Shown piece by piece: positions 3,893-26,230 of a stretch of DNA of 38,188 nt; the stretch's first letter is position 1, and the number at the start of each line of letters is the position of its first letter. Source of the DNA: a virus. The notes below the pieces were generated by a model. It was not told where the DNA came from, searched no databases, and saw only the letters and a list, made by a program, of their open reading frames with translations. Where the stretch lies: positions 1 to 38,188 of the IMG/VR virus record IMGVR_UViG_3300035698_003110. One strand, given 5' to 3'. Both the position numbers and the translations under genes were made by a program.

Positions 3893-5261
3893 ATCACCTA
3901 GAGATTTTGCTAAATTACTTTGCTACTCATATTTTAAGAATGACTATGGAGCTCCGTTAGAGATAACTGACGGTCAAGCCGATATTTTCTTGTCGGTTTT
4001 TTTGAAGTTAGATCCAAGAGTAAGCATCATCACTTCGACTCAATATGGGAAGTCTACGATTGTAGCCTGTGCCTTAATTGCTCGGAGTATTTTATTTAAA
4101 GAAACTTGGTATATCATTGCAGGGACAGATAAGATTGCTGATATCATTATGGGGAATGTGATCCAACACGTCTTCGATCATAAGTATTGGACTAAGCAGT
4201 TGGAAGTGAACGATGGGCAACCACTCGATAGATTACGCCAAGAGCGAAGTAGTAAAAGATTGACTTGGGTTAAGGGTGGAGAGATAAATAGGATCTCCGC
4301 CCAGTCGAGTAGTAAGAAGAAATTGAAAGATGGATTGGCAGGTCAGGGTAGTCCGAATATTCTAGAAGATGAAGCCTGTCTTATCCCTGATGATTTTCAA
4401 AATATGATTTTAAGAATGTTAGGCGGGCACGCAGTCAACACTTTAGTTAAAGTTGGAAACGCAATCGAAAGAAACCATTTTCATAGAACCAGCACAAACG
4501 AAAAATATTTAAGAATTCTTATAGATTATAAACAGGCTCTAGCCGAGGGCAGATACACTCCTGAATTCGTTGATGAGATTAAAGATGAAAGTATTGGAGA
4601 TCCATCGTTTTTTAAAAATTATTACGAATGCAAATTCCCCGAAGAAAATGAGGTTGATGTTGACGGATACCATCGTTTATTACCTGATACAAATGTTGAT
4701 GCAATGCAGATCAATGATGGCAAGCACGAGGGAGTGAAAAGACTGGGCTTTGATCCGTCGGAGGGGGGCGATGAAAACGCGGGGGTAGTTCGGAGCAATA
4801 AGTTTGCCGAGATCGTTCACCTGTCCCTTGTAGACGATTTAATGAAGCAAGCGGACATAATTGTCCAACTGATGAAAGATCACGGTATAGAGGCTAAGAA
4901 TGTCTTTATTGATGATACTGGTGTAGGGGCTGGAATAGTTGATAGATTGCACCAGCTAAAGCTTCCTGTAAATGGGGTAAAATGGGCTTCAAATGAGAGG
5001 ATCAAAGTAGGGCGAGCGAATAAGAAAGCTGATGGATTTAAGGAAGCGGAAGCGTGGGTTAGAAAAGGTGGAAAGGCTAAGACTGATGTAAAGTGGAATG
5101 AATTAAAGATTATAAAGTGGATAACTAATTCCGTTGGGTTGATCCTTATGGAGTCAAAAGAAAGATTGCGAAAACAAGGAATAAAATCCCCGAATGTAGC
5201 CGATGCCCTTGCATTAACGTTCGATAATCCAAAGCCAGTAGCAAGAGTTTTGGAAACTTAA
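3846..5261 (+). CDS. terL: Terminase large subunit (packaging ATPase and nuclease)
   Basis: This motor cuts concatemeric DNA and pumps it into proheads. The N-terminal ATPase shows a Walker A at QYGKST (residues 66-71) and a Walker B at LEDEA (about 173-177) with the catalytic glutamate after the aspartate. The C-terminal RNase H-like nuclease shows the acidic residues expected: FDP (D303), FIDDTG (D356/D357) and NVADALAL (D453). Length (471) is normal. ATG 3846 lies inside terS; ATG 3876 (residue 11) is an alternative start with no better ribosome site. A promoter follows in the gap before the portal gene. Confidence 0.95.
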   Translation: MSKRKTIAEIMELKDKSPRDFAKLLCYSYFKNDYGAPLEITDGQADIFLSVFLKLDPRVSIITSTQYGKSTIVACALIARSILFKETWYIIAGTDKIADIIMGNVIQHVFDHKYWTKQLEVNDGQPLDRLRQERSSKRLTWVKGGEINRISAQSSSKKKLKDGLAGQGSPNILEDEACLIPDDFQNMILRMLGGHAVNTLVKVGNAIERNHFHRTSTNEKYLRILIDYKQALAEGRYTPEFVDEIKDESIGDPSFFKNYYECKFPEENEVDVDGYHRLLPDTNVDAMQINDGKHEGVKRLGFDPSEGGDENAGVVRSNKFAEIVHLSLVDDLMKQADIIVQLMKDHGIEAKNVFIDDTGVGAGIVDRLHQLKLPVNGVKWASNERIKVGRANKKADGFKEAEAWVRKGGKAKTDVKWNELKIIKWITNSVGLILMESKERLRKQGIKSPNVADALALTFDNPKPVARVLET

Positions 5262-5317: not shown

Positions 5318-7624
5318 ATGTCAATTATCAAAGATATTAGAGAAAAGTTTGTTGGGTTTATTGGTGGAGAACAAAAGATTACTGGGAACAATCGAATGAA
5401 GCCCGAAGATCAAGACACAGGTAATTTGGGACACGTTGTCGCCCCGATCTATCAAGAGATCCCACCCGAACCTAAAGCTGGACAATATCTTAAAGAGGGA
5501 ATGAGAAGTTGGGGATACATAGCTATTAGTGCCATTGCAGATGAAATATCTACAATGTGTTTATCTTTATATAAAAGAGTTGGGGACGGAACTGAATGGA
5601 AAGAAATATTTGATAACCCTAAACTCGCTTTAATAAATCACCCAAACCCCTTTCAAACCAAGATTGAATTTTTTTGGTTGATTTCTGCGTTTCTATTATC
5701 CGAGGGTGAAGCACCTGTGCTTTTGAATAAGGCAAAGAACCCAACGAGTATGATCTTACTTAATCCCGCTCATCTAAAGATCGTATATGATAAGGATAAA
5801 ATAATTGGTGGATATAAATATCAGAGGACAGACGGAACGACTGCGACTTTCGATGCAGACTTAATAATGTTTTTGAAATTACCTAACTGGGAAAATCAAT
5901 TCAGAGGGTTAGGAGTTTCAGGTTATATCAAACAGACTTTAGACTTAGATAATTTCATTGAGGAATATCTAAGAATTTTCTTTTATAATAATGCTACTCC
6001 CTCCGCCGTGTTGGAAACTAAAAACATTCTTAACGATGAGGTGATCGAGCGACTTAAAAAACAATTCAAGAAACGTCACCAAGGAATAAAGAACTCTCAT
6101 AAACTTTCTATCTTTGAAGATGGACTTACTTGGAAAAATGTCGGAGACAAACTAAGCGAACTTGATACTACTAAGATTGAGAAATCACTAAGAGATAAAA
6201 TACTTAGTGCTTTTAAAGTTCCTAAATCTGTATTGGGATTAGTTGAAGATGTGAACAGAGCGAATGGAGAAAATGCTGATCGAGTATTTGCCCGTCGAGC
6301 TGTGAAGCCAAAACTATTGATCCTTGAAGAACAACTTAATGAATTTCTTTTAAGTGCTTTCGATGATGGAAACGATTACTGGTTTGAATTTGAAAATCCT
6401 GTAAAGGAAGATGATAAACTTATTGCTGAAACTAGACAGGTGAATATCAATAGCGGAGTTAGGACTGTAAACGAATACCGAGAGGAAGATGGACTTGAAC
6501 CAATCGAAGCAGAAACAGAACCAGTTAAAGAGCCAGCCGAGGGAGAAAAAGAGGTTAGCAGAAAATTCTATCATAAGAACCCTAAGAATATTAACAGGAT
6601 CAGATATGCAAAGGTTAAGGCTAAGACTGTTAATCCTAAAGAGGAAAAGAAAGAACAGGAAAATCCATTCCTTGAAATGTGTAAAGAAGTTGTTGGTGGA
6701 AAATATAAACGAGAATATACTAAAACAGAATTGGATAAATTTCATACTGATAAAGTTATGTTCAGCGATAAGATCGAGGCAAACTTTGTTGAAGACTTGA
6801 ATAAAAATATGGATCGGATCGGTAAAGAAATTATCGCACAGATACCGAGCAAAAAATCAGTCAAGAATAAAAAGGTTGTATTCACTTTAGATACTGAAAA
6901 GGAAATTGGAATAATGGCTGAACTTTCTACTCCATACATTGAGGAGTCAATCGTTAAGGAAAGCATTTTGACTTTCGCTTTATTAGGAGTCGACGATTCA
7001 CTAGATACCCAAGATATCGCGGTCAATGAGTATATTACAGACAGCACCCTTAAATTAGGGAAGTCTTCAACTGCCACTACGGTAGATGGAGTAAATTCCA
7101 TTTTAACCGAATGGGCTAAAGATCCCGACGCATCTATTTCTGATTTGAAAAAACTTTTAAATAATTTCTTACACGACATTAAGAGATCCGAAATGATCGC
7201 TCGAACAGAGGTGAGCAGAGCTACTGGGTTCGCTCAAATTTCAGTCTATAAAGAAGTCGGAGCTTTTGGAAAACAATGGATAACAGCTAGAGATGAAAAG
7301 GTTTGTGAATTCTGCGGTCAACTTGATAAAAGAGTCACCGCCGTAGAAAGTGATTACTTTAAAAAGGGAGATACTTTAGTCGGAGCAGATGGAGGTGTTA
7401 TTAAATTTAACTACGGAAATGTCCCCGCTCAACCATTGCACCCGAATTGCAGATGCGATATGATAGCCGTTTTTGCCAAGACAAATACTATGGCGGAATT
7501 CCGTAAAAAGAATGATCGAGAGGTCAAGAGAGTTGAAGCTATCGAGGCAAGAGAAAATAAAATAAACGAAAGAGAGAACGAGCTTGATGAAGACATAAAG
7601 GAGCTTGAAAAAATTAAAAAATAA
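5318..7624 (+). CDS. Portal protein fused to MuF-like head morphogenesis domain
   Basis: Residues about 1-400 match HK97-type phage portal proteins, which form the dodecameric ring at the capsid vertex. Features include the clip/stem helices around VPKSVLGLVEDVNRANGE near residue 305. After a charged linker (about 400-460), residues about 610-720 match the MuF/SPP1 gp7 minor head domain: SEMIARTEVSRATGFA, the zinc-type pair VCEFCG, and the hallmark HPNCRC near residue 707. The last 50 residues are a highly charged coiled coil. In many phages portal and MuF are separate adjacent genes; here they form one 768-residue polypeptide with no internal stop. Ejected or capsid-internal roles for MuF proteins are known but not shown here. 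Confidence 0.9.
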   Translation: MSIIKDIREKFVGFIGGEQKITGNNRMKPEDQDTGNLGHVVAPIYQEIPPEPKAGQYLKEGMRSWGYIAISAIADEISTMCLSLYKRVGDGTEWKEIFDNPKLALINHPNPFQTKIEFFWLISAFLLSEGEAPVLLNKAKNPTSMILLNPAHLKIVYDKDKIIGGYKYQRTDGTTATFDADLIMFLKLPNWENQFRGLGVSGYIKQTLDLDNFIEEYLRIFFYNNATPSAVLETKNILNDEVIERLKKQFKKRHQGIKNSHKLSIFEDGLTWKNVGDKLSELDTTKIEKSLRDKILSAFKVPKSVLGLVEDVNRANGENADRVFARRAVKPKLLILEEQLNEFLLSAFDDGNDYWFEFENPVKEDDKLIAETRQVNINSGVRTVNEYREEDGLEPIEAETEPVKEPAEGEKEVSRKFYHKNPKNINRIRYAKVKAKTVNPKEEKKEQENPFLEMCKEVVGGKYKREYTKTELDKFHTDKVMFSDKIEANFVEDLNKNMDRIGKEIIAQIPSKKSVKNKKVVFTLDTEKEIGIMAELSTPYIEESIVKESILTFALLGVDDSLDTQDIAVNEYITDSTLKLGKSSTATTVDGVNSILTEWAKDPDASISDLKKLLNNFLHDIKRSEMIARTEVSRATGFAQISVYKEVGAFGKQWITARDEKVCEFCGQLDKRVTAVESDYFKKGDTLVGADGGVIKFNYGNVPAQPLHPNCRCDMIAVFAKTNTMAEFRKKNDREVKRVEAIEARENKINERENELDEDIKELEKIKK

Positions 7625-7626
7625 TA

Positions 7627-10600
7627 ATGTCTAGAAAAGACAGAATACAAAAATTAAAAGATCAACAACTTGATGGGGCTTTGGAGGAAATAAAAGTAGA
7701 ACATTCCCCGAAGATGGAAAAATTAAAGAAACTCGGAGAAGAAATTAAAGCGATCGAAAAGGAAGAGCAGGACGCAGAGATGAGAAAGAGATACCAAGTT
7801 GTTATTGATTATGTCGACAAGCACAAGAAAGAGCTTGCCGTTAAATTAGAAACTTTAGAAATGGACGTCCGAAACTCGGAGTCTATCTTTGCGTTTAAAC
7901 TTCATACTCACGAAAACCTTGAAAAAAGATTTGTGAGCTATTTGTTAAAGGAAGCCTTTGACGATTTTAAAGATGGGATCGCCATTGATTACGAAAAGGT
8001 ATTGAATAGGATCGGTGACATAGAATTATCTGACGAAGCAAAAGAAAAGGAAAACCGACTAAGCTTTCGTGGGCTCAAAACTAGCATTACTCACCTTTGG
8101 AAAAGAATTGATAATATTAAACATAGGGATCTGATCGGCTTAAAATGGAGCGAGGCTGGACATAAGATTGATACGGATATAGAGATGAAGAAACATCGAA
8201 TAGTTGATCTACCCCTACCTGAACAAGCGTCAGAGGCAACCAGTAAGGAATATGTAGACTCATTGATGAATGCTCTTGGACGGAGCTTCCAAACTATAAT
8301 TGGTGGTGGCGGAGGTGAAACTGTGTGGGGTGAAATTACTGGAAATTATTTAGATCAAACGGATATCATCGCCTACATTGATTCACAAATTGCAGGAGAA
8401 AATCATTGGGATATGATTGGTGATTTGTTAGTGCCTCATATTACAGGTAAAGGTATTGATGTGGCTAATTCTTTTGTTAGACAAGCCGACAATACAGAAT
8501 TTATCATTCAAGCAACTGACGGATTGGGATATAAGCAGACTTTTAGAAATATAGCTGGCACTAGATTAGAATGGCTTTGGGGAATAGAAACAGAGGAGGA
8601 CAAATATCTATCATTAAGTTTATCTGGTGGAGAGAATAGATTTGATAATAAAGAGAGAGATTTCAAATTCTTATCTACTGCTGTAAATGATATTTTACAT
8701 CTCAAACACGATACTGGATATATTGGGATTGGAGTAGCCAATCCACAAGCAAGGCTTGATGTCCTAGACGATATTCAGACTGACGCTTTGGAAATGAGAA
8801 TTACTGCGGGACAGACTAAAATTTATGATTACAATACTATAACAGCCCCATCGGATTACTCTCTCGCTTATATGAAAAATAGTTTGACTGCGAGTGATAT
8901 GCTTACTGACCCTACAACTGGTTGGGGTGGGAGAGAATTTACTAATGCCGAGTATTCACTTATTTGGGCAGATAATGCAAATGGTGCTCAAAATCTAGCT
9001 AATGGAACTCCGTTGTATTTGGGTATAATGTGCGAAATGTTTATTGGAGAAAGTGCAAGTCAAATTTCTAACTTGAAAATCGTTATCAATCAATTTAATA
9101 ATGAGTATAGAGTATTTTTTTCACACGCACTTTGGAATTTTACTAATAGCGCTTGGGACAATATAGGGAGTGGATTTAAGATAAATACGAATACGGATTA
9201 CACTTACAATGAGGCTGACATATCAGATTATATAGACGCTGATGGTAGAATTTATATTTTACAATATACTACGAGTGCCACGAGCAGTCTTAATGCTTTT
9301 CGTCTTCTGTATATCTCCTTGACGCCGACATTAACATCAACAATTTCAACCCTTGAAGATAATATCTATGATGATGATTTTATAATCAAGAGAACTTCGC
9401 CACGTGCTTTTCAAGTTTGTCAAAGTGACGGAACGCAGATTGCAAATATAAACACCGCTACTGGTGCTACTGTTTTGAAGACTTTGAATTTGGAAAAAGA
9501 TTTAGTTTCATTAGGACAGGCTTATTTTAAAAATCCGTTAATCGGTATCGGAAGTGGTTTTGCTTATAGTTTTTCCTCTGGTGGAACTCCTACTCTCGGC
9601 TATATAATTAAATCTGCTGTTGGACACGAGGACATAGACACAACAACCTACGGACTTTATTGGGAATACTTTTATTCTCCTACAACTTCGACCATAGCAG
9701 AACATTGGGGAGCGCAATTCCACCACGACCCTACTGGAACAACTAAATACGGAGCTGGAAGTGTGATTGGGAATGTTCATTTTACAATTAAGACTAATTA
9801 CTACGAAAGCTTAACTGGTAGCGTAGATTTAGAATTTATAAATGTCAGAACAAAATTATTTTCTAATTTAGGGTCAGTCACAGGAAAAAGAGCCGTTAAT
9901 GCACTCTTCATTCCCTTTGAGCAAAGTGTTGGGACTTTAACAATGGCAGATGGATTGTTTAATGTCCTTTTGGAAGATAGTGGCACAGGTAGTTTGACTG
10001 GAACTTTGTATCAATTATTTATTGAAAAAACTACAAGTGGCTCGGTTGCAAATTATCAATTTGTGCTAGGTGGATATGATGACGAAACAGGAGTTTATTT
10101 TAATGGAATAACTGGCGCTCATCTTTATAGTAATGGTGCTGATTTATTATTAGATTGTGGAACAGAACAAACATTAGAATTAGTCCAACCAGTTTGGGAC
10201 GATTTAAGAGTTTCAGCAAGTTCAGTTAAGGTGCAAGGGTCAAGTGGAATACCAAGTTATGTTAAATTCAAAGATGACGGGAGTGGTAGCACAGGGGTTT
10301 GGACTTATGATTTTGAGCCTACTAATTTAAACCAAGTTTTCTTTACTGCTCAAATGCCTCATACTTATAAAGAGGGAACTGACTTAATGCCCCACGTCCA
10401 TTGGAGTCCTAAATCAACTAATACGGGAGATGTGGATTGGATTTTAGAATATACAATCGTAAATATAGGTGGGACTTTTGGAAATACTACGACAATCCAT
10501 ATGCTTGATACTGCCGACGGAGTAATTGATAAGCACCAAATTTCAGTTGGTGACGCTATTGACGGAAGTGGATTAGGGATTTCCCATATGATAGTTTGCA

Positions 10601-23984: not shown

Positions 23985-23987
23985 TTG

Positions 23988-24014
23988 TTAGGGGAGGTAA
24001 TATTTCTCCCCTAA
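23988..24014 (+). terminator. GC-rich hairpin upstream of the endolysin gene
   Basis: TTAGGGGAG (23988-23996) pairs perfectly with CTCCCCTAA (24006-24014) around a 9-nt loop, directly after the zinc-ribbon stop at 23984. The following bases (TCAATTTG) lack a run of T, so it is at most a weak terminator or an mRNA processing signal separating the zinc genes from the lysis genes. Confidence 0.55.
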
Positions 24015-24029
24015 TCAATTTGTTAGATG

Positions 24030-24070
24030 AAATTTGTGGACAATACCCTCTCCCCATTGTCCACGAATTT
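24030..24070 (+). promoter_or_regulatory. 15-bp hairpin in the endolysin leader
   Basis: AAATTTGTGGACAAT (24030-24044) pairs with ATTGTCCACGAATTT (24056-24070) with one U-G wobble, giving 15 continuous pairs in RNA around an 11-nt pyrimidine-rich loop (CCCTCTCCCC). The element lies 23 nt before ATG 24094 and follows a second hairpin at 23988-24014. It may control mRNA stability or translation of the endolysin. No T-run follows. Confidence 0.55.
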
Positions 24071-24093
24071 CTACTAATAAATTAAAAACAATT

Positions 24094-25005
24094 ATGCGTA
24101 GATTATATTTATTCGCCCATAACAAAGAAAATTTTGTTAGCGTAGGCGACAAAGTGAAAGCTTACGAAACAAAGATAGCTTCGATTGGAAAGGGATATCA
24201 AAATCAGTATTCGGCTCACCTCCACCCGTCAATTTCAGATAAATTAACTCCTGAACAAATTAAGGGTTATGTTAATGGCTGGTCTAAAAGTAAAGTCAAA
24301 GAGCATTATACTAAACCGAGCACTCTGATTGATATTGATAGAATGTGTGGAAAGAAAATGGATATTGGAAATTTAGGTTATGCTTGGTTGCAAGATTATG
24401 GTGCTGGATTTCACCCGTCCGAAGATGTTAATTCTCCGCAAGGAGGGGACAGCGATTTAGGATTAGAATTTGATAGTCCTATAAATGGTAAGGTTGTTAG
24501 ATCCGAAAACTGGGGTAGAGGTTGGGGACTGATTATTTTGATCGAGGTGGAAGACGAAGACGATTTCGATTATGGAGAAGCAGAAAATAAAACAGAGGCG
24601 ATTGATAATATTTGTGGGATAGTAGATTATAATTATCATTCTAGATTTGATGATAAAGATACTGACAGGCTGACTGAAATAATCAGAGTGCTTGCACAAG
24701 AACCCGAATGTATTGCAGAGAAGAAAGAGATCGAAATATTGAAAGGAGAAATACTTTTATTGAATGCGGATCTCACTAACTATGAGGCGGTTAAAATTCT
24801 GAACGCTGAATTGGAAGCAAAAGTAATAACACTAGAGGGAAAAATTGAAAACCAAAGATCTCAAATTCTTTCCTTAGAAGAAAAATTGCGTAAGTGTAAA
24901 AAAGAGTTGGAAGTCCAAACTGCGATAGCTGAAAAAAACTTAGAGGCGGTCGGGATCGTAAGACTTCTACAAGAGGCGTTTAAAAAATTATTTAACTACA
25001 AATAA
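24094..25005 (+). CDS. Endolysin with circularly permuted M23 peptidase domain, 303 aa
   Basis: M23 peptidases are zinc enzymes cutting peptidoglycan cross-bridges. Usually H-x3-D comes first and H-x-H about 70-80 residues later. Here HLH (H42, H44) precedes HPSED (H107, D111). The N-terminal part (VSVGDKVKAYETKIASIGKG) matches the normal C-terminal end of the domain, and the region GYAWLQDYGAGFHPSEDVN up to WGRGWGLIILIE (about 96-152) matches its normal beginning, so the domain appears permuted. All metal-ligand and catalytic residues survive. C-terminal residues about 205-290 form a coiled coil. ATG 24094 is chosen over a TTG at 24034 lying inside the hairpin. A holin-like gene follows 1 bp later. 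Confidence 0.75.
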   Translation: MRRLYLFAHNKENFVSVGDKVKAYETKIASIGKGYQNQYSAHLHPSISDKLTPEQIKGYVNGWSKSKVKEHYTKPSTLIDIDRMCGKKMDIGNLGYAWLQDYGAGFHPSEDVNSPQGGDSDLGLEFDSPINGKVVRSENWGRGWGLIILIEVEDEDDFDYGEAENKTEAIDNICGIVDYNYHSRFDDKDTDRLTEIIRVLAQEPECIAEKKEIEILKGEILLLNADLTNYEAVKILNAELEAKVITLEGKIENQRSQILSLEEKLRKCKKELEVQTAIAEKNLEAVGIVRLLQEAFKKLFNYK

Positions 25006-25006
25006 T

Positions 25007-25183
25007 ATGAAACTATTTGAAAGTGCGAGTAAGATTGTTTTTATCCTGATAACGATTTCAGTAATTGTTGGAATGTTTATGGGGATCATCGAGGCGAAAG
25101 ATTATATGCTTTTGGCTACAATGGTTTTCACTTACTACTTCACCAACAAAGGAAACAAGTCAAATGAGTATTTAGGAAAATAA
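25007..25183 (+). CDS. Holin-like small membrane protein, 58 aa
   Basis: ATG 25007 is 1 bp after the endolysin stop. The 58-residue product has two hydrophobic segments (about residues 10-28 and 33-47) joined by a charged turn (EAKD), and a polar tail. Two spans, small size and location beside the endolysin fit a class II holin. There is no family motif, so an antiholin or other membrane role is possible. The lysis operon ends after this gene at a strong terminator. Confidence 0.65.
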   Translation: MKLFESASKIVFILITISVIVGMFMGIIEAKDYMLLATMVFTYYFTNKGNKSNEYLGK

Positions 25184-25639: not shown

Positions 25640-26230
25640 ATGAAAGTTTATAAAAAGCGAAAAGCTAAGAATAAATTTAAGCAGTTTACAATTAGATTAG
25701 TATTGAATGCTCTAGTCTTGATCGGTATGCTTGCATCTCTAAACTTGGGTATAGAGTATGTAAAAACCATCAGGATACATAAAGAGGTTTTAATAATTAT
25801 AGGGGAAAAAATTGACGGTGCGTTGGTGGGTAGATTGGGGGACGAGGGTGAAAATCTATCTTCGAGTTCACAGGTCAAGCCAAGCGGTGAGGAGGGACAC
25901 AGTCCCTCCGAGCCAACGGGATTTAAAGAAATAGTGCAGATCATTTTCAGATTAGAAAGTTCAGGCGGACGAAATGTTAATTGCCCCGAGGGGAAATTTA
26001 ACGGATATGGTTATAGACAAAATACTAAAGAGTGGGTTTGTTATGACACGCAGGAAGAAATAGATTTGATTGTTGAGGCTGACATAAAACACAAACTTGA
26101 AACCTACGATTTGCCGACTGCCCTTTGTGGATATAATATGGGATTTCAACACAAAGACTTTCAGATGTGTCTAGATCAGAAAAAAGAATACCCTTACTAT
26201 CGAGATTATTTAATAATTAAAAATCAATAA
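25640..26230 (+). CDS. Membrane-anchored lytic transglycosylase-like protein, 196 aa
   Basis: A basic N-terminus and one span (about 19-37) lead, via a linker of Gly/Ser/Glu (65-94), to a domain with IFRLESSGG (catalytic-type glutamate E106) and ALCGYNMG (165-168). This corresponds to the E-S and Y-N-x-G motifs of lysozyme-like transglycosylases (SLT fold), which cleave glycan strands. Two cysteines flank the domain (C115, C134). Placement in the early operon, distant from the lysis genes, is odd and may imply a role at the wall during entry or exclusion of other phages. Family match is moderate, as spacing is unusual. Confidence 0.6.
   Translation: MKVYKKRKAKNKFKQFTIRLVLNALVLIGMLASLNLGIEYVKTIRIHKEVLIIIGEKIDGALVGRLGDEGENLSSSSQVKPSGEEGHSPSEPTGFKEIVQIIFRLESSGGRNVNCPEGKFNGYGYRQNTKEWVCYDTQEEIDLIVEADIKHKLETYDLPTALCGYNMGFQHKDFQMCLDQKKEYPYYRDYLIIKNQ
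25891..25909. repeat. GC-rich perfect hairpin inside the transglycosylase linker
   Basis: GGAGGGAC (25891-25898) and GTCCCTCC (25902-25909) form a perfect 8-bp inverted repeat around ACA. It falls exactly in the flexible linker coding region (residues about 84-90), where an inserted palindrome would be tolerated. The surroundings are AT-rich, so the block stands out in composition. It resembles a small mobile palindromic repeat. Confidence 0.6.

Follow-up and report, generated by a model that had tools for sequence, protein, structure and literature searches.

Is the catalytic domain of the lysin encoded at this locus an M23 peptidase whose chain has been re-cut in nature, so that its two halves now follow one another in reverse? 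The question arises in a virus record of 38,188 bases, analysed over its whole length and called here the window, in which the lysin ORF runs from an ATG at 24094 to 25005 and encodes 303 amino acids. An alternative TTG start at 24034 is possible, and homologs begin at the ATG position. In solved M23 structures the zinc is held by the histidine and aspartate of an HxxxD motif and by the second histidine of an HxH motif, and the water is oriented by the first histidine of HxH together with a third conserved histidine (PMC5053510, PMC10593780, PMC8269130); the latter role belongs to His78 in EnpA and His219 in Csd1 (PMC8269130, PMC5053510). The window presents these motifs as YxH, HxH and then HxxxD, and not in the canonical linear order of HxxxD, YxH and HxH. 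Because the motif order is reversed we file the lysin as a permuted variant and not as a canonical member of M23. The domain and its active-site residues lie as follows.

24094–24558, plus strand: permuted M23 peptidase domain, complete, residues 1–155 (swapped matches to a canonical HMM, cut-point scan, colinear homologs, stand-alone homologs of 153–155 aa)
24118–24120, plus strand: H9, equivalent of the third conserved catalytic histidine, invariant in 10 of 10 members
24217–24225, plus strand: H42-x-H44, the HxH motif, both histidines invariant in 10 of 10 members
24412–24426, plus strand: H107-x3-D111, the HxxxD zinc motif, H and D invariant in 10 of 10 members

The positions given for H42, L43, H44, H107 and D111 in the sequence-only reading of this DNA are exact in the ORF translation. 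Its statement that all catalytic elements are present also held, but the set it named was one residue short, since H9, within 'LFAHN', is a fifth active-site residue. The H107/D111 pair aligns to the canonical HxxxD motif by both BLAST and the canonical HMM, and H9 aligns to the YAHL or YGHL of canonical M23 proteins. All five residues are conserved across the ten permuted proteins described below. The residue between the HxH histidines varies, being HCH in L028 (10001–10717) and L067 and HTH in L053, with both histidines kept.

The swapped order is seen with profiles. A canonical M23 HMM was built from 12 canonical proteins of Thermus and Meiothermus phages and Patescibacteria. The ten candidates for permutation were searched with it, and as controls three canonical proteins kept out of the build and 50 shuffles. 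Window residues 6–80 match HMM positions 93–166 (38.4 bits, i-E 6e-14) and residues 96–155 match positions 25–85 (35.1 bits, i-E 6e-13), against 3.7 bits for the best of the 50 shuffled sequences. The same pair of matches in swapped order was found in all ten permuted proteins (i-E 1e-10 to 1e-18), and the half carrying H-x3-D matches the first half of canonical M23 on its own, with i-E of 1e-12 to 1e-16. The two halves are delimited thus.

24094–24333, plus strand: canonical second half of M23, now first, residues 1–80, with the YxH strand, V-G-D-x-V turn, H-x-H strand and 'SK..V..Y..P' C-terminal extension (canonical HMM, PF01551, hhalign)
24379–24558, plus strand: canonical first half of M23, now last, residues 96–155, with the N-terminal extension, H-x3-D, G-x-V strand and 'WGxxIxIE' strand (canonical HMM, BLAST to Thermus phage M23)

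Other comparisons see the same arrangement, or one half of it. BLAST against the canonical M23 protein of Thermus phage Cumys pairs residues 107–153 with 35–80 (2e-7) and residues 4–44 with 98–138 (7e-6), with the order reversed, and a weak phmmer match to EnvC has its halves likewise swapped. The Pfam model PF01551 matches residues 5–48 of the window protein, a stretch that takes in HxH, with only the second half of its profile (47–88, E 4.5e-4); the score of 20.8 bits stands against a gathering cut-off of 28.7, and the model aligns only one half of a permuted protein at once. Two relatives, L014 and L019, score 35.2 and 34.7 bits with this model, over the cut-off. With hhalign, likewise, a single half of the permuted family aligns to the canonical alignment (5–77 to 95–164, E 3.7e-16). 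A full-length hhalign match of the family to alignment A1 was discounted, as A1 includes the window sequence itself.

The place of the cut was located by re-cutting the canonical HMM at every fourth column and taking the score of a single alignment. The mean of the ten permuted proteins rose from 46 to 71–75 bits, and no such gain was seen unless the cut fell within the loop around Cumys residues 79–103, just before the YxHL strand. A permuted M23 profile of this kind, which the sequence-only reading had itself put forward as a check, lifts the window protein from 38 to 68 bits, and the same re-cut lowers the held-out canonical proteins from 64 to 34 bits. The parental halves are thus swapped, the parental termini joined and the new termini placed at one loop, as in a circular permutation. 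These swapped matches, the single-loop peak of the scan and nine further proteins of identical order and cut bear out the permutation first suggested. Judged on sequence, we are highly confident that the catalytic domain of this phage endolysin is a naturally circularly permuted M23 zinc endopeptidase of the LytM/lysostaphin type.

The segment connecting the two halves had been taken for a new linker of about 60 residues. It turned out to be mostly ancestral, consisting of the canonical C-terminal and N-terminal extensions joined end to end. In canonical relatives the counterpart of window-protein residues 45–80 is the C-terminal extension ('...GWS..V..YY.PSDFI' in L054), and that of residues ~90–106 is the N-terminal extension ('FGWGYLEYTYGGVYHPGEDWN'). 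The canonical Patescibacterial protein L054 reads '...YNKTFGWGYLEYTYGGVYHPGEDWNGDGGGNTDLGD...' before and through HxxxD and '...AHLHFEVRKKKRGPCDWVTGWSRDEVKNWYYEPSDFIDNH' past HxH; in the permuted proteins the second, C-terminal extension comes before the first, as in L019 ('...AHLHFSISEGLTPEQLKAYISGWSKEKVQKYYQDPRWIDFEKMFGTKVDVGNFGYDWLQWIGYGYHPGVDVNGLGGGNTDFG...'). The true joint spans only about 10–15 residues.

24334–24378, plus strand: joint of the old C-terminus with the old N-terminus, about 15 residues (81–95), partly alignable (gap between the two HMM matches, alignments A1 and A10)

To judge from the aligned sequences, this order of extensions is what a fusion of the old termini should look like.

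Degenerate scans of virus contigs and genome contigs, together with whole-genome surveys, yielded nine other distinct permuted proteins. Seven of them lie on virus contigs and two in prophages within genomes of the tiny Patescibacteria, which makes ten with the window.

L014, virus contig: 46% identity over window residues 1–155 in one alignment
L019/L020 (identical domains) and L021, virus contigs: 49% identity to the window
L025, L026 and L027, virus contigs: same order and cut as the window
L066 and L067, virus contigs: L066 repeats the L028 domain at 100% and so is not counted as distinct
L028, 10001–10717: in a Candidatus Moraniibacteriota MAG (Patescibacteria group), contig of 82 kb
L053, 919–2001, minus strand: in genome G711, from the same order as the host of L028

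That nine relatives share one order and one cut speaks for a real natural permutation and not a sequencing error. The L028 and L053 regions are prophage-like, and both have an integrase gene and host housekeeping genes close by. Whole-genome surveys at three ranks gave full-length permuted matches as follows: phylum, 1 of 380 genomes; class, 2 of 384; order, 2 of 131, two surveys of these same 131 genomes being counted as one. Such sparse counts fit scattered prophages and not a host housekeeping gene. Other searches were less productive: no useful relatives came from single-sequence patterns of the lysin, a tail protein or the terminase scanned against viral contigs, an initial genome-contig scan gave no match, and a plasmid search returned unrelated matches only. 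One apparent relative, L001, was rejected as a chance match from a single-sequence pattern scan, and a first seven-row alignment was dropped as a scan query, being too diverse.

The permuted unit is a complete protein, since four members (L021, L025, L026 and L027) are stand-alone proteins of 153–155 aa that start with the YxHL-side strand, end with the 'GWGNxIxI' strand and contain nothing more. In L014 the start codon overlaps the stop of the gene before it, which leaves no room for a missing upstream half. A leftover second M23 half, such as tandem duplication might leave behind, was looked for and not found, either in the window or beside any homolog. In a tree of the permuted domains and re-ordered canonical domains all ten permuted proteins fall on one side of a single branch (support 100/98), by which the sequences show common descent within a single clade; in its subgroup the window protein has diverged furthest, with a branch of 1.08. 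Nucleotide comparison of permuted lysins gave dN of about 0.14–0.25 with synonymous sites saturated or near-saturated. Where it could be computed dN/dS was about 0.10–0.13, indicating strong purifying selection, also across the joint.

A single metagenomic contig could be misassembled, and the true gene might then be canonical in a rearranged contig. We give this virtually no weight: contigs from several further metagenome samples and two assembled bacterial genomes have the same order and cut, purifying selection runs across the joint, and the independent homologs refute an assembly artefact. It is also very unlikely that the protein consists of two separate domains, an M23-like second half and an unrelated H-x3-D domain, with no common active site. 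Pfam does report the second half only; yet the other half matches the canonical first half independently, one canonical protein matches both halves, and only a cut at the loop improves the profile, by about 30 bits.

Somewhat less remote, and still improbable, is a domain that is permuted yet inactive, a degenerate M23 serving as a binding or regulatory module in the manner of EnvC or other LytM factors. M23 proteins that keep the fold and have lost catalysis do exist (PMC5053510, PMC8416486), and the variable residue within HxH in L028, L067 and L053 could be read the same way. Five active-site residues invariant in ten diverse members would, however, be unusual for degenerate LytM factors, and the stand-alone 153-aa form often precedes small ORFs, some with a membrane segment, as an endolysin would. 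The preferred reading is a permuted and probably active M23 domain.

Predicted structures were obtained with AlphaFold2 from the family alignment. The window domain reached pTM 0.78 and pLDDT 76.9, with one of five runs confident, and L021 reached pTM 0.82 and pLDDT 79.7, with three of five confident. The window model has strands at both chain ends (E3–9, E27–31 and E43–49; E125–127, E132–140 and E145–152). Foldseek searches of the PDB and viral models with the permuted-domain models gave no significant match, and VIA-align returned no M23 chain but only barrel-sandwich-hybrid folds (DUF2118, NqrA, NusG domain 2 and biotin carrier) at Z of 5.7 or less; these matches pair both chain ends together, with an aligned range of 1–153 or 1–155. 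Missing M23 chains are expected of an aligner that keeps chain order, and we do not read them as evidence against M23. SCOP files LytM under 'duplicated hybrid motif', in the same fold class as the barrel-sandwich hybrids. This shared class may be the reason for the matches and offers a lead.

The C-terminal coiled coil, which had been described along with the permuted domain, does not belong to it, as relatives have nothing there or a different domain.

24559–25005, plus strand: acidic stretch and coiled coil, an accessory tail outside the permuted domain, absent or replaced in homologs

The domain is followed by this coiled coil in the window and by short tails in other members. L014 carries a second domain (4460–4876) with 'RQNNPGNL' that matches tape-measure and endolysin PHROGs (phrog_2276 and phrog_873); this domain is probably another cell-wall enzyme, joined by fusion to the permuted M23. 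In L053 (919–2001, minus strand) a coiled coil is followed by a moderately hydrophobic C-terminus, under a simple hydropathy cut-off, and this lysin is possibly fused to a membrane or holin-like segment.

The gene order of the window is siphovirus-like, with terminase, portal, major head protein, tape measure and distal tail protein recognised by PHROGs. The portal is seemingly fused to a head-morphogenesis domain, both PHROGs falling in one 768-aa ORF at 5318–7624. By sequence pattern, several glycosyltransferase-like and methyltransferase-like genes lie near both contig ends (916–1743 and 33069–36870), and perhaps serve surface or DNA modification. Around the lysin three features were identified.

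24017–24083, plus strand: inverted repeat of 28 nt with an 11-nt loop, just upstream of the lysin start, arms 86% complementary
25007–25183, plus strand: 58-aa membrane protein, a possible holin, directly downstream of the lysin, with a strong hydrophobic segment and no named family
25640–26230, plus strand: 196-aa ORF, weakly a possible second cell-wall enzyme, with an N-terminal TM at residue 20 and 'IFRLESSGG'

The region upstream of the lysin folds at -44.9 kcal/mol (z -9.2), and the core palindrome of the inverted repeat occurs once in the window. The repeat is possibly a terminator, a control element or a lysis-timing element. A second hairpin, also upstream of the lysin, lies at about 23987–24015. 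The 196-aa ORF has no Pfam or PHROG match, has a 31% relative in L026 at 7593–7916 and is possibly a membrane-anchored muramidase. In another of the contigs the gene preceding the permuted lysin (L027, 3–494) encodes a hydrophobic N-terminal stretch and the pattern 'YNCVDYA...GHLIYVEEV'; it looks CHAP-like and has no PHROG match.

Simple hydropathy finds no TM segment in the lysin, and downstream of several homologous lysins lie small ORFs, of which some have a TM segment. Together with the adjoining 58-aa membrane protein this makes a holin-dependent endolysin the most likely role. Compared with the L057 prophage, the window has 40% identity over 308 aa in the tape measure, 30% over 328 aa in the tail tube, 26% in Dit and 22% in a tail protein; its tail-fibre-like protein is 39% identical over 284 aa to the counterpart in the L028/L059 prophage. 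As these tail genes resemble genes of Patescibacteria prophages, the host of the window phage was probably a Patescibacterium.

The history and action of the enzyme may be pictured as follows. The N- and C-termini of an ancestral M23 would have been joined through their own flanking extensions, and new termini opened in the variable loop between the strand ending in '(W)GxxVVIxH' and the 'YxHL' strand, so as to give a chain that would run from H9 through the G-D-x-V turn and HxH (H42, H44) to the C-terminal extension, the N-terminal extension, HxxxD (H107, D111) and the last strand. In the folded lysin H107, D111 and H44 would hold one zinc, and H42 and H9 would orient the attacking water, as in canonical M23. 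The lysin would cross to the wall via a holin, cut stem or cross-bridge peptides of its Patescibacterial host and so release virions. Zinc binding, activity, bond specificity, the holin partner and the host are all inferred here.

Set beside known M23 enzymes (Pfam PF01551; LytM, lysostaphin, EnpA and Csd1), the lysin shares HxxxD, HxH, the third histidine, the G-D-x-V turn and two halves each recognisable by profile; it differs in its reversed halves, in its joined old termini and in new termini placed in the loop that precedes the YxHL strand. The closest sequence relatives found were canonical M23 proteins of Patescibacteria (G487/L054 and G095/L044) and of Thermus and Meiothermus phages (Cumys, MMP7 and IN93). 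These share the N- and C-terminal extensions around the domain and, unlike the permuted lysins, keep the canonical order; L054 has 'IGQGYNNEYRAHLHFEV' where the window has 'IGKGYQNQYSAHLHPSI'. A hydrophobic, signal-like stretch opens both L054 and L044 and is lacking in the permuted lysins. PHROG 7767 (metallo-endopeptidase) matches 9 of 9 members and PHROG 14988 (peptidase) 7 of 9, as partial matches to one half each.

A precedent exists in another peptidoglycan-peptidase superfamily, NlpC/P60, for which circularly permuted clades, YaeF/Poxvirus G6R and LRAT-like, are known (Anantharaman and Aravind 2003, as cited in PMC6403190), but that is a cysteine peptidase fold unrelated to M23. In the open-access literature that we searched, no M23, LytM or lysostaphin-type enzyme was described as permuted, and an M23 review on 'one fold, many functions' does not mention permutation (PMC9662197). 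We consider it likely that one ancient event gave rise to an active permuted M23, since fixed as an endolysin lineage in Patescibacteria phages, that this is the first natural permutation known in the M23/LAS metallopeptidases, and that the new C-terminus became a point at which coiled coils, a second catalytic domain or hydrophobic segments are attached.

Ten natural proteins that keep a full active site with the chain re-cut in mid-domain indicate that the M23 fold and its zinc site tolerate permutation, and the cut loop marks a place where the M23 chain can be opened. There is a practical side for annotation, as profiles miss or half-label these lysins, Pfam reporting one half and NCBIfam nothing above cut-off. 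The minimal 153-residue members are directly testable by expression, zinc binding and structure. For Patescibacteria, a large group in which phages and the lysis of the cell wall have received little study, the family further provides a concrete lineage of phage lysins, and it is of real interest both for protein evolution and for Patescibacteria phage biology.
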